A stretch of 34,107 nucleotides of DNA from Bacteroidaceae bacterium (GTDB lineage Bacteria > Bacteroidota > Bacteroidia > Bacteroidales > Bacteroidaceae). The notes below the pieces were generated by a model that was not told the origin of the DNA, did not search any database, and worked only from the letters and a program-made list of their open reading frames with translations. The translations under genes were made by a program, and so were the position numbers. The stretch is taken from assembly GCA_017547585.1 (NCBI GenBank), contig JAFYPH010000011.1, positions 1 to 34,107 on the forward strand, given 5' to 3'. Below are positions 3,641 through 33,939 of this stretch, one piece after another. Within the stretch, counting starts at the first letter, position 1. Each line of letters opens with the position of its first letter.

Positions 3641-3641
3641 G

Positions 3642-3715
3642 TGATCCCGACAGGATTCAAACCTGTAACCTTCTGATCCGTAGTCAGATGCTCTATTCAG
3701 TTGAGCTACGAGACC
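3642..3715 (-). tRNA. tRNA-Arg (anticodon ACG), promoter-distal copy
   Basis: The 74-nt gene folds as a full cloverleaf: a 7-bp acceptor GGTCTCG/CGGGATC with two wobbles, a D-arm GCTC/GAGC, an anticodon stem TCTGA/TCAGA around the loop CTACGGA, and a T-arm ACAGG/CCTGT. Anticodon ACG, with A34 normally deaminated to inosine, reads CGU, CGC and CGA. The CCA end is not encoded and must be added. It is identical to the copy at 3771-3844. Confidence 0.96.
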
Positions 3716-3770
3716 CCTTAAATTTATTTTTGCAATCGAAAGAGCTTTTGTCGAAAAAACGCGGCCTTTG

Positions 3771-3844
3771 TGATCCCGACAGGATTCAAACCTGTAACCT
3801 TCTGATCCGTAGTCAGATGCTCTATTCAGTTGAGCTACGAGACC
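3771..3844 (-). tRNA. tRNA-Arg (anticodon ACG), promoter-proximal copy
   Basis: This is identical over all 74 nt to the copy at 3642-3715, with the same cloverleaf and no encoded CCA. The 55-bp spacer between the copies differs from flanking DNA, so the duplication covers little beyond the tRNA. Both copies lie between one promoter and one terminator and are likely processed from one transcript. Confidence 0.96.
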
Positions 3845-31259: not shown

Positions 31260-31604
31260 ATGCCAAGATCAGTGAATCATGTTGCTTCAAGAGCACGTAG
31301 AAAGAAAATTTTAGGTTTGACCAGAGGTTACTTTGGTGCAAGAAAGAATGTATGGACAGTAGCCAAGAACACTTGGGAGAAGGGTCTTACATATGCTTTC
31401 CGCGACCGTCGTAACAAGAAACGCGAGTTCCGCGCTTTGTGGATTCAGCGTATCAATGCTGCAGCTCGTCTCGAGGGTATGTCATACTCACAGTTGATGG
31501 GTGCTTTGCACAAGGCAGGTATCGAGATCAACCGTAAGGTTCTCGCCGACCTCGCAATGAACAATCCCGCAGCGTTCAAAGCTATCGTTGATAAAGTAAA
31601 GTAA
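31260..31604 (+). CDS. rplT: 50S ribosomal protein L20 (bL20)
   Basis: The 114-residue protein has the expected N-terminal tail and helix ([20 protein letters not shown]) and the conserved [20 protein letters not shown] region (near residues 49-68). L20 binds 23S rRNA early in 50S assembly and often represses its own operon. It is the last gene of thrS-infC-rpmI-rplT, followed after 22 bp by a strong terminator. Confidence 0.97.
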
Positions 31605-31626
31605 TCTTAGGTCAATGATGCAATAT

Positions 31627-31659
31627 GCGAGTGAAACGAATGTTTCACTCGCTTTTTTT
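31627..31659 (+). terminator. Terminator of the thrS-rplT operon
   Basis: A perfect 11-bp stem (31627-31637 with 31642-31652) closes a GAAT loop and is followed by seven T. Confidence 0.94.
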
Positions 31660-31726
31660 ATGCTGTTGATAATCATTGCATTTCGCAAGGGAAGAAAAAT
31701 AAATGGAAAAAAAATGTACAAATAGT

Positions 31727-31756
31727 TTGATTTTCTGAATTCTGTTATTATTTTTG
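31727..31756 (+). promoter_or_regulatory. Promoter of the Bacteroidales-1 RNA
   Basis: TTG (31727-31729) is followed after exactly 19 nt by TATTTTTG (31749-31756). The predicted start site (about 31762) coincides with the 5' arm of the RNA's closing stem. Confidence 0.85.
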
Positions 31757-31761
31757 CCATA

Positions 31762-31980
31762 GGTTTTGCTGCGTTTGATGACTGGGAAACTCATCAATTA
31801 TATTCAGAAAACCGAGACAAGTTTCATTCTCAATGGCGGGCCACGCCTTCGGGTAGCAATTAAGTGCCGGTGGATTACAAAGAGATGGAACTCTCAAATC
31901 TTATTTACTCGGAGTTTCGTCGTTCTATCGGCGTAGCAAAACTTTCCCATACAAAAAGCCGCACATTTGTGCGGCTTTTC
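31762..31980 (+). ncRNA. Bacteroidales-1 RNA (6S-like non-coding RNA)
   Basis: The roughly 215-nt transcript has no convincing reading frame but has a full promoter, a terminator and a coherent fold. An 11-bp closing stem pairs 31763-31773 with 31932-31942. A large internal bubble follows, with a TTGATGA/TCATCAA hairpin (31775-31797) in its 5' strand. A CCGAG/CTCGG stem and a 10-bp arm GTTTCAT-CTC/GAGATGGAAC with one bulged T lead to a TTCG-capped tip. Location downstream of rplT, Bacteroidota promoter and terminal hairpin match the described Bacteroidales-1 motif, which has been related to 6S RNA. Exact ends are estimates, and a 6S role (RNA polymerase binding) is inferred from shape. Confidence 0.8.
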
Positions 31981-31988
31981 TGCTTTTT
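31954..31988. terminator. Bidirectional terminator of the Bacteroidales-1 RNA and the fasciclin gene
   Basis: A perfect 12-bp stem (31954-31965 with 31968-31979) closes a TT gap and has A and T runs on either side. It ends the RNA on the + strand and the convergent fasciclin gene on the - strand, whose stop lies 8 bp away. Confidence 0.9.
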
Positions 31989-33939
31989 AATGCCTATCCT
32001 CGGGCTTTACGGGGTCGTTTATAATGCTCAACGGCACAAGTTCTATGTAGTCGAGGTGGAATGGGTTTACGCCCTCTCTCAACAATCTGAAACGTATCCA
32101 ATGTTCGCCTTCGTTTAAATGTATTCTGCAAATAATCTTACGCAGGCTTATGTAACTTTCTCGCATGCTTACAGGGCCGCTTGTGCCCAAAGGCCTGTGG
32201 TTGCTGCCGTAAAAAGCGTCAGGCCCTTTCATCCACCCTTGACTGCGCATCAGTTTGTCGTGTGCCACTCCGTTGTCTAATGTTTCCACATCATCCACCC
32301 ACTCGACGGGTATTTTGTCTTTGGGAAAGTCTATGGGGAGCGAGCATATTTTACCATCGATGTATGGTTGTAGCAACCATCCGTAATGCCCCAAATATGG
32401 GGTTAGCAGTTCTACGCCTAAGCGCACTTCGTACACTCTTGCCGGTACGGGAGGCAGACGAAAAGAGATGTCGAAGAAATTCCAACCGACAATTGCGTCG
32501 CGCATGTAACCATCAAAAATGCAATATGAGAAATTCTCCGAAGCGTTGGAGCCGTTTTTTATGTTTTCACAATATGAGAATGGTATGTATATTTCTGATC
32601 TGTAGTTGGTGGCGTATCTTATGTTATTGCACGAAAGTTCGGGTAGCAATGTTCCAAAATCGAAACGCATGCGTTCGTTAAGAATGTTTCCCGCCATTTC
32701 ATTTTCGTCGTATATGAGAATATTCTCTATGGGTTGAATGATTCCATTCATCGCAATGGGGTTGAAACGTGCATGTTTCTCGCTTGCTTGTGTAAACTCT
32801 GTTGGCTCAATGATGCGTACGTTCAGGTAACTGCGCATCTCTTCGTTGTAGACTTTATTCTCTTTAAATCTGTTAATATACATGTAAAGACCATCTTTGC
32901 TGCTTAGTGGCTTTGTTACCTTCATCAGTCTGCCCAGCATTGTCTCGAAATAGTCATAGCAGTCGTGTCCGGCAACAACTAATTCTTCAAGTGAGTAGCC
33001 GCCCACTTGCATGGGGATTATTTTATTGTATGTAAGTTCGCGGGGCACAAAGTGGTAGGCAACGAATTTGTAGAGCGCGTTTTTGGGACTACAAGGGTTG
33101 TCTCTATCCTCGGTACCGTACCACTTTTCGGCAAATCTCTTAAGGTCGTCAAGAGTATAGATGCCATTATTGTTGAAGACTTCGTTCGTCTCTATAAATC
33201 CGGTGTATTTGTAAAATTTCTTTTGTGGAGTGACATCTTTATCAAGAGGTTTGAACTTTAAGTCTATATATTTTTGTAACGAGTCGCCAAAGTTTGTTGC
33301 TGCAAGTGCTTCGCTGAATAGACTGAAGAATGTGTAGCCCTCAATGTGTTTAGGGAGGGTGTTATTAGTAACCTCAATCACGTTGTCTACAATGTGTACG
33401 ATACCATTTTCGACTTCATAGTCTCTGTCGATTATTTTTGTTGTTACGTTTATTTTTGTATGAAAGCTTTCGTCGCTTTTCTCGTATGAGATTCCTAAAT
33501 AACGATCGTAGAAGTTCCAATGTGAAAGTGCTCCGTCATCGAACGAGGTTGTTGGGTGGTTGCCTTCTACAAGATGAGTGCGGGCAATTACGTTTGCCAT
33601 TGAGTCGCTTAGTTCTTCGAAGAGTGGCGAGGTTATTCCAGTCCACACAGGGGCGTCGCTCTCTTTTGTAGCGTGGTAGATACTGTCCTGCTCTTGAATG
33701 TATTTTTCAACTGCCTCGTTATCGGGTAGGAACAGCGTATATTGCCCGTAGGTCTGCAATAGCGAGAATAGCTCTGCTCGCTTAAGCAGTGTGATAAAGT
33801 GCGAATACTTTTCGCTGCGGTTAAGCATAAAATCGGCTACCGTCTCGCCTGTAAAGGTGTAACGGTTACTCTTGTCAATCTCTTCGGTGCAAGCCGCGAT
33901 TGACAATGCTAATGCGAGTATGTAAATTATTCGTTTCAT
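31987..33939 (-). CDS. Fasciclin (FAS1) domain lipoprotein
   Basis: The 650-residue protein has a lipoprotein signal (ALSIAAC, Cys17). A FAS1-like domain (about 30-185) follows, with GQYTLFLPDNEAVEKYI and VENGIVHIVDNVIEV motifs. A second, more divergent FAS1-like region lies near 195-410 (GIYTLDDLKRFAEKWYG, LYKFVAYHFVPREL). The C-terminal 230 residues are beta-rich with no domain I recognise. In Bacteroidota such proteins often sit in SusC/SusD surface-uptake loci, but here the upstream DNA is an insertion sequence only 48 bp before the start. No promoter is visible upstream. Likely surface- or periplasm-exposed; function unknown. Confidence 0.85.
   Translation of the reverse strand: MKRIIYILALALSIAACTEEIDKSNRYTFTGETVADFMLNRSEKYSHFITLLKRAELFSLLQTYGQYTLFLPDNEAVEKYIQEQDSIYHATKESDAPVWTGITSPLFEELSDSMANVIARTHLVEGNHPTTSFDDGALSHWNFYDRYLGISYEKSDESFHTKINVTTKIIDRDYEVENGIVHIVDNVIEVTNNTLPKHIEGYTFFSLFSEALAATNFGDSLQKYIDLKFKPLDKDVTPQKKFYKYTGFIETNEVFNNNGIYTLDDLKRFAEKWYGTEDRDNPCSPKNALYKFVAYHFVPRELTYNKIIPMQVGGYSLEELVVAGHDCYDYFETMLGRLMKVTKPLSSKDGLYMYINRFKENKVYNEEMRSYLNVRIIEPTEFTQASEKHARFNPIAMNGIIQPIENILIYDENEMAGNILNERMRFDFGTLLPELSCNNIRYATNYRSEIYIPFSYCENIKNGSNASENFSYCIFDGYMRDAIVGWNFFDISFRLPPVPARVYEVRLGVELLTPYLGHYGWLLQPYIDGKICSLPIDFPKDKIPVEWVDDVETLDNGVAHDKLMRSQGWMKGPDAFYGSNHRPLGTSGPVSMRESYISLRKIICRIHLNEGEHWIRFRLLREGVNPFHLDYIELVPLSIINDPVKPEDRH

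Follow-up and report, generated by a model that had tools for sequence, protein, structure and literature searches.

6S RNA binds the main RNA polymerase holoenzyme as a false promoter, and product RNA synthesis releases it. In the Bacteroidales, a 6S identity was reportedly proposed by Wehner in 2014 for Bacteroidales-1, an RNA family held in Rfam as RF01693 under the label "Bacteroidales-1 6S-Bacteroidales RNA suggested." Canonical 6S RNAs are described as composed of an outer closing stem, a central bulge, and an apical stem (PMC8414754). Within the phylum, Bacteroides thetaiotaomicron was reported to have a 6S RNA that gives rise to product RNAs (pRNAs) of two classes, and Flavobacterium psychrophilum also yielded a 6S RNA (PMC7366714; PMC9723704). 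For the B. thetaiotaomicron RNA, the main text of PMC7366714 does not use the name Bacteroidales-1. Bacteroidales-1 itself is listed in a table of Weinberg 2010 (PMC2864571), and the reannotation of Porphyromonas gingivalis gives one Bacteroidales-1 RNA per strain (PMC5771137).

We analyzed a window of 34,107 nucleotides from a Bacteroidaceae bacterium (assembly GCA_017547585.1, contig JAFYPH010000011.1, positions 1 to 34,107), in which a preliminary description had placed a Bacteroidales-1/6S-like RNA directly downstream of rplT. The RNA gene is real and is an additional member of this already known Rfam family. Judging from its sequence, it very probably encodes the 6S RNA of a Bacteroidales species as a stand-alone transcript, which would adopt a false-promoter fold.

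Identification and Distribution of the RNA Gene

The Bacteroidales-1 covariance model RF01693 matches the plus strand at 31767–31944 over its full length (model positions 1–179), with 124.5 bits (E 1.5e-20) for a curated gathering cut-off of 60, and the conserved blocks and the rod are the same. The family identity first given to this RNA is thus well founded. The check proposed at that stage, a search with the Bacteroidales-1 and 6S models, was successful for the former only: with RF00013, the general 6S model, nothing was found anywhere in the source genome at E up to 10. A search with the model R1 described below revealed one copy of the gene in this genome, which is 84.89% complete. Some other bacteria carry two 6S RNAs.

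Counting the source genome, 31 of 61 near genomes score above the RF01693 cut-off, as do 76 of 393 genomes of the order; at E 0.001, the model matches 106 of the 393. A further 23 order genomes match only the 6S-Flavo model RF01685, and 264 of the 393 match neither model under these strict filters. Among the other genomes of the same genus, 26 of 36 match RF01693 and ten do not. Three of these ten (G004, G009, and G023) show no Bacteroidales-1 match despite 90–97% completeness, which may reflect assembly gaps, losses in filtering, or a true absence of the gene.

We gathered 178 loci, comprising 30 matches in near genomes, 118 of the loci listed by a DNA pattern scan of the genomes of named species (which has at least this many), and 30 matches in the order. 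Flanking DNA was sufficient for 171 of them, seven being lost at contig edges, and 167 are distinct. Sixty further order-level RF01693 matches, mostly weaker, were added, for a total of 227 aligned sequences. Alignment A1 comprises 64 of the 167 relatives, less than 80% identical to one another, and the covariance model R1 was built from A1 only, that is, from Bacteroidales-1 sequences. As a finder of missed members R1 brought no net gain, with 107 matches versus 106 for the Rfam model in the 393 order genomes (11 gained and 10 lost).

Upstream of the RNA, a −33 element TTTG (31726–31729) lies 19 nt ahead of a −7 element, TATTTTTG (31749–31756), that fits TAnnTTTG. Elements and spacing agree with the consensus that PMC7366714 quotes for the main sigma factor of the Bacteroidota, in line with the Bacteroidota promoter noted initially. 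The exact TAnnTTTG box is found upstream of 148 of the 167 distinct relatives, and its six defined positions are kept in 155 (T), 156 (A), 163 (T), 165 (T), 155 (T), and 161 (G) of them. A TTG precedes the exact box by 16–21 nt in 138 of these 148 relatives (113 sites at 20 nt and 25 at 19 nt), but in just 29 at a control spacing of 28–33 nt. These elements form a conserved promoter belonging to the RNA gene itself and of the Bacteroidota type, unlike the promoters of the RF00013 6S systems.

The Closing Stem and the Rod

In a mutual-information scan of the 167 relatives, performed with no structure given, the top eight signals correspond to four pairs of a closing stem (31769-31936 first, then 31767-31938, 31770-31935, and 31772-31933), three pairs of a rod (31830-31883, 31825-31887, and 31829-31884), and one pair of the tip region. 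The closing stem P1 joins 31762–31773, at the predicted transcript start (around 31762), to 31932–31943. The preliminary description counted 11 bp for this stem, which is indeed present but is made of 12 pairs, two of them G-U. Its strands fit each other specifically: in the 64 relatives of A1, the duplex energy averages −20.9 kcal/mol for own strands versus −11.4 kcal/mol for swapped ones, and none of 2,000 permutations was as good. The same holds for 56 of the 60 further relatives (−20.3 vs. −10.1 kcal/mol; 0 of 2,000 permutations), the remaining four being left out because they had too few letters. The outermost five pairs are kept in about half of A1, from 29 of 62 to 36 of 59. In four A1 loci (L034, L039, L088, and L142), a G-rich 5′ strand and a C-rich 3′ strand replace the usual GCCG type of closing strands, and the bubble and rod are kept. 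On the inner side of P1, a short helix P2 pairs 31780–31782 with 31919–31921; its three pairs are formed in 61, 59, and 54 of 64 relatives, with little variation.

The rod is formed by a 5′ strand at 31814–31835 (paired segments 31814–31816, 31820–31831, and 31834–31835) and a 3′ strand at 31878–31895, which covary in A1. At 31815-31894, for instance, the 64 sequences have 53 A-U, 6 G-U, and 5 G-C pairs. In 60 further relatives, 31834 is an A in 13 sequences and 31879 a T in 13, the two columns being counted separately; these changes may represent the swap of one rod pair. In the upper rod, a conserved segment made of GCGGG (31836–31840) and a CCAC strand (together 31836–31844) faces a conserved GTGG strand followed by ATTA (31870–31877, with ATTA at 31874–31877). 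The conserved rod therefore has several internal loops, such as this GCGGG opposite ATTA, and is not the long rod with one bulge that was first drawn. The pattern used for the scan behind the 167 relatives contained GGCGGGC and GGATTAC, so that the selection itself partly accounts for the invariant loop and for an upper rod that is fully paired throughout A1. Among the 60 relatives added without this pattern, 40–59 keep the base of the window at the nine loop positions. The loop is conserved but variable, and we dropped its designation as invariant; it is a candidate polymerase contact site. The TTCG-capped tip hairpin (31845–31854) is present as initially described, with CCTTCGGG at 31846–31853, and varies in sequence and length among relatives.

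We evaluated a 39-pair structure combining the closing stem, the rod, and the edge helix characterized below. In A1, 90.2% of its pairs are formed, compared with 82.1% in shuffles and 39–47% in slid versions of the structure, and 28 pairs are changed on both sides versus 17.9 in shuffles; on all five measures, none of 500 shuffles was as high. RNAalifold applied to A1 recovers the closing stem and rod unprompted, drawing 28 pairs, 19 of which have compensatory changes. Such changes in relatives, to which the preliminary description had tied its reading, are thus seen in the closing stem, the edge helix, and the rod. As read from the alignments, the arrangement of a closing stem, an internal bubble, and a long apical stem is the 6S layout, and it is supported by covariation.

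The sequence of the window considered alone leads to a different fold. When the terminator is included, none of 200 shuffles folds as well as the 220-nt transcript (z −4.67); for the 182-nt body alone the result is less striking, with three of 200 shuffles as good (z −2.78). The conserved fold has an energy of −44.3 kcal/mol and the minimum-energy fold one of −53.9 kcal/mol, a difference of 9.6 kcal/mol in favor of the latter. The rod is absent from this fold, and rod pairs have probabilities of 0.00–0.18 in the unconstrained ensemble. Because the unconstrained fold breaks the conserved rod, we rejected it as a structural guide and discounted energy alone as a basis for any reading.

A Long-Range Helix at the Edge of the Bubble

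The Rfam structure of RF01693 leaves the spans before and after the rod unpaired and includes neither a closing stem nor an edge helix. Within these spans, GAAACTC at 31786–31792 can pair with GAGTTTC at 31912–31918. Five of the seven pairs of this long-range helix are formed in all 64 sequences of A1, 31786-31918 is formed in 59, and 31788-31916 in 36, the other 28 having T-T. Among the 227 aligned sequences, a change in one strand is often matched in the other (GTAAACTC/GAGTTTAC, TCAAACTC/GAGTTTGA, ATAAACTC/GAGTTTAT, and ATAGTC/GACTTT), in some cases with one base bulged (GAGACTC/GAGTTCTC or GAGACTC/GAGTCCTC). Parsimony on a tree built without the edge-helix columns places double compensatory changes on single branches eight times for 31786-31918 and twice for 31790-31914. 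Own strands are better than swapped ones (none of 2,000 permutations as good, with 71 distinct types), and three pairs are doubly changed, a number reached in none of 500 shuffles. The further relatives agree: 31786-31918 is formed in 47 of 59 sequences, and each of the other six pairs in 56–59 of 59. Several observations speak against the helix: 11 of the 33 branch changes at 31786-31918 start or finish unpaired, T-T occurs at 31788-31916 in 52 of 226 sequences and G-G at 31786-31918 in five, and RNAalifold omits it and draws a two-pair local hairpin in its place. Weighing both sides of the alignment evidence, we interpret 31786–31792/31912–31918 as a real helix that extends the closing side.

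With this helix formed, the bubble is narrower than the unpaired span of Rfam. The open part consists of 21 nt (31793–31813) opposite 16 nt (31896–31911), between conserved helices. Its 3′ strand carries a conserved AAATC and T31902, which is present in 167 of 167 relatives and 58 of the 60 further ones. A pairing of CCGAG with CTCGG across the bubble (31812–31816/31908–31912) was considered and rejected: its pairs are formed in 63, 58, 50, and 48 of 64 sequences and in 32 of 47, which is weaker than the competing rod pairing GAG/CTC (31814–31816/31893–31895; 62, 64, and 62 of 64). A search of the literature on the central bubble of Bacteroid 6S RNA found nothing. The outer closing stem, central bulge, and apical stem are shared with the RF00013 6S RNAs described in Escherichia coli, Bacillus, and other bacteria. 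Unlike these, the window RNA has no RF00013 match and has a conserved helix where a wider open bubble is expected.

The preliminary description had instead placed a hairpin within the 5′ bubble strand. This hairpin, TTGATGA/TCATCAA (31775–31781/31791–31797), does exist in the window and is not conserved in relatives. In A1, its two inner pairs are formed in 61 and 64 of 64 sequences and the five outer ones in 20 of 63, then 3, 12, 10, and 11 of 64. As a family feature the seven-pair hairpin was rejected, 421 of 500 shuffles being as high on cells paired. Since a slid version scored higher (63.5% paired), we examined the local hairpin in another register; this five-pair form, with 72.8% of cells paired, is no better than chance (188 of 500 shuffles as high).

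The local hairpin and the long-range helix share bases and cannot form at once. The RNA could then have two real states, the conserved fold with the edge helix and the minimum-energy fold with the local 5′ hairpin. The minimum-energy fold does contain the local hairpin, the unconstrained ensemble of the window sequence gives it a probability of 0.56–0.78 versus 0.19 for the long-range helix, and the two-pair hairpin drawn by RNAalifold for the family lies at the place of the edge helix. We nonetheless regard two states as rather unlikely, given that neither register of the hairpin is conserved beyond shuffles, that compensatory changes are seen for the long-range helix, and that, once the closing stem and rod are fixed, this helix forms unforced (−44.3 kcal/mol), whereas forcing the seven-pair hairpin (−37.2 kcal/mol) costs about 7 kcal/mol.

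The 3′ End of the RNA

An intrinsic terminator of 11 pairs (31954–31979) follows the gene, as announced in the preliminary description, and is separate from the closing stem. Because of its symmetry, and because the convergent minus-strand gene 31987–33939 has its stop only 7 nt away, it may serve both genes. Among relatives, TTTTT occurs within 14 nt after the closing stem in 88 of 167, and a separate hairpin terminator within 95 nt in 79 of 167 versus 28 of 167 shuffled sequences; 30 relatives have both and 30 have neither. The T tract after the closing stem is a tendency only. It is found in 21 of 26 loci of the same genus, and in the window the T run is broken (CTTTCCC). The window RNA thus differs from RF01693 both by this broken tract and by its separate terminator.

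Relationship with the 6S-Flavo Family

The 6S-Flavo model RF01685 yields 28 matches at E 0.001 in the 393 order genomes, none of them over its cut-off. Five of the 28 genomes also match Bacteroidales-1, and each time the two matches coincide in place and strand. At the level of the phylum, RF01685 matches 36 of 296 genomes, 12 over the cut-off. Besides the window, R1 was run on 50 loci of the 6S-Flavo type: 30 taken from the 36 matches in the phylum and 20 from the 28 in the order, four of these 20 also matching RF01693. R1 matches all 50 loci at the place given by Rfam (E up to 1). E is at most 0.0015 for the 30 phylum loci and at most 0.016 for 18 of the 20 order loci, which makes 48 loci at 0.016 or below; the other two order loci are at 0.43 and 0.53.

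The flanking strands of the 6S-Flavo loci also fit each other better than swapped ones in two sets (12 and 20 loci; 0 of 2,000 permutations). Like the window RNA, these loci have a closing stem and a helix of the AAACTC/GAGTTT type at the bubble edge; the closing stem is followed by a T tract, and the 45 nt downstream contain TTTTT in all 30 phylum loci and in 19 of the 20 order loci. In contrast, the sequences have diverged, and RF01685 gives only 29.1 bits on the window for a cut-off of 85. As R1 finds all 50 loci at the same place, Bacteroidales-1 and 6S-Flavo look homologous.

Function and Genomic Context

The 6S-like reading of the preliminary description is supported by the covariation of the closing stem and rod and by the homology with 6S-Flavo. 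The gene has its own promoter and, in a source genome 84.89% complete, a single copy, as looked for in a member of the 6S class. Speaking against the 6S reading are the lower energy of the single-sequence fold, the lack of an RF00013 match, the ten genomes of the genus without an RF01693 match, and the 264 order genomes matched by neither family model under the strict filters. A trans-acting base-pairing small RNA, or another protein-binding RNA merely resembling 6S, might also account for the strong sequence conservation of unpaired or near-invariant stretches such as CTCAAATC and ACTCATCAA, and for the lack of an RF00013 match. We consider this improbable, given the covarying closing stem and rod arranged around a bubble, the one copy in the source genome, the homology with 6S-Flavo, and the report of a Bacteroides 6S RNA with pRNAs (PMC7366714).

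In the window, rplT is followed by a terminator (31627–31652, plus strand), the RNA gene, and the convergent minus-strand gene 31987–33939. The terminator consists of an 11-pair stem followed by TTTTTTT and parts the RNA gene, which starts 157 nt past rplT, from the preceding operon; three terminator-like sites are found in 31550–32050, for 0.2 expected from shuffles. Judging from their translations, we take the plus-strand genes upstream to be thrS, infC, rpmI, and rplT. The position after L20 had been presented as matching the described Bacteroidales-1 motif. Of the 178 loci, 70 have rplT upstream on the same strand, 68 of them at no more than 400 nt, and within the genus this holds for 14 of 26 loci; another arrangement is found in one locus, and no rplT in the flanking DNA of 107, these rplT counts being lower bounds because many loci carry only about 1.6 kb or less of upstream DNA. 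It is a common neighbor, yet we rejected this synteny as a family marker. The longest downstream frame is on the plus strand in 94 of the 178 loci and on the minus strand in 50; 33 loci have too little DNA and one has no frame.

A cis-regulatory element of rplT or of the next gene, for example an L20 feedback site or a leader, is suggested by the proximity of rplT here and in the 70 loci, and the table of Weinberg 2010 (PMC2864571) marks cis-regulation with a question mark, but this explanation is highly improbable given the terminator between rplT and the RNA, the conserved promoter of the RNA, a next gene that runs toward it, downstream frames on either strand in relatives, and the 107 loci lacking rplT in their flanking DNA, although many of these have little upstream DNA.

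Elsewhere in the window, two tRNA-Arg (acg) genes on the minus strand (3641–3715 and 3770–3844), with starts 129 nt apart and identical matched letters, are probably a tandem duplication. The right end of the contig (33960–34107) resembles the edge of an insertion element (CCCCAAAAAGTTGGACGG), which, as a guess, may be the reason why the contig ends there.

Proposed Mechanism and Implications

Under the 6S reading, the RNA would be transcribed from the main-sigma-factor promoter with a start around 31762, giving a transcript of about 182 nt, or of 218–220 nt when it ends at the separate terminator. The closing stem, internal bubble, and long rod would together mimic melted promoter DNA, and the main holoenzyme would bind the RNA instead of promoters. 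Given an abundant supply of nucleotides, the polymerase would start on the 5′ bubble strand, the putative template, beside the edge helix, and copy into this helix and the closing stem. The product RNA is expected to start opposite 31794–31795 and to begin with AUGAGUUU or GAUGAGUUU; it would open the closing stem and so release the enzyme.

More tentatively, Bacteroidales-1 and 6S-Flavo could be one phylum-wide 6S RNA unlike the textbook form, with bubble strands that pair in an edge helix and a closing stem often running into a T tract. We would put this broader view at somewhat less than an even chance. If it is true, the polymerase must open an RNA duplex (31786–31792/31912–31918) in the way it opens promoter DNA, and the product RNA would begin with the same bases as the 3′ strand that it displaces. 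In addition, the two ends of the RNA would pair as a terminator, so that only the folded RNA ends correctly.

The locus itself is ordinary, and the refined structure is a modest addition. What is added here, the covariation of the closing stem, the edge helix, and the homology of two Rfam families, may already stand in the work of Wehner in 2014. 6S RNA is thought to set the amount of free RNA polymerase, and the Bacteroidota have an unusual main sigma factor and promoter. The covariation-based structure points to the expected product RNA starts and to the bases that the polymerase may read, and the two Rfam families, Bacteroidales-1 and 6S-Flavo, should probably be treated as one.
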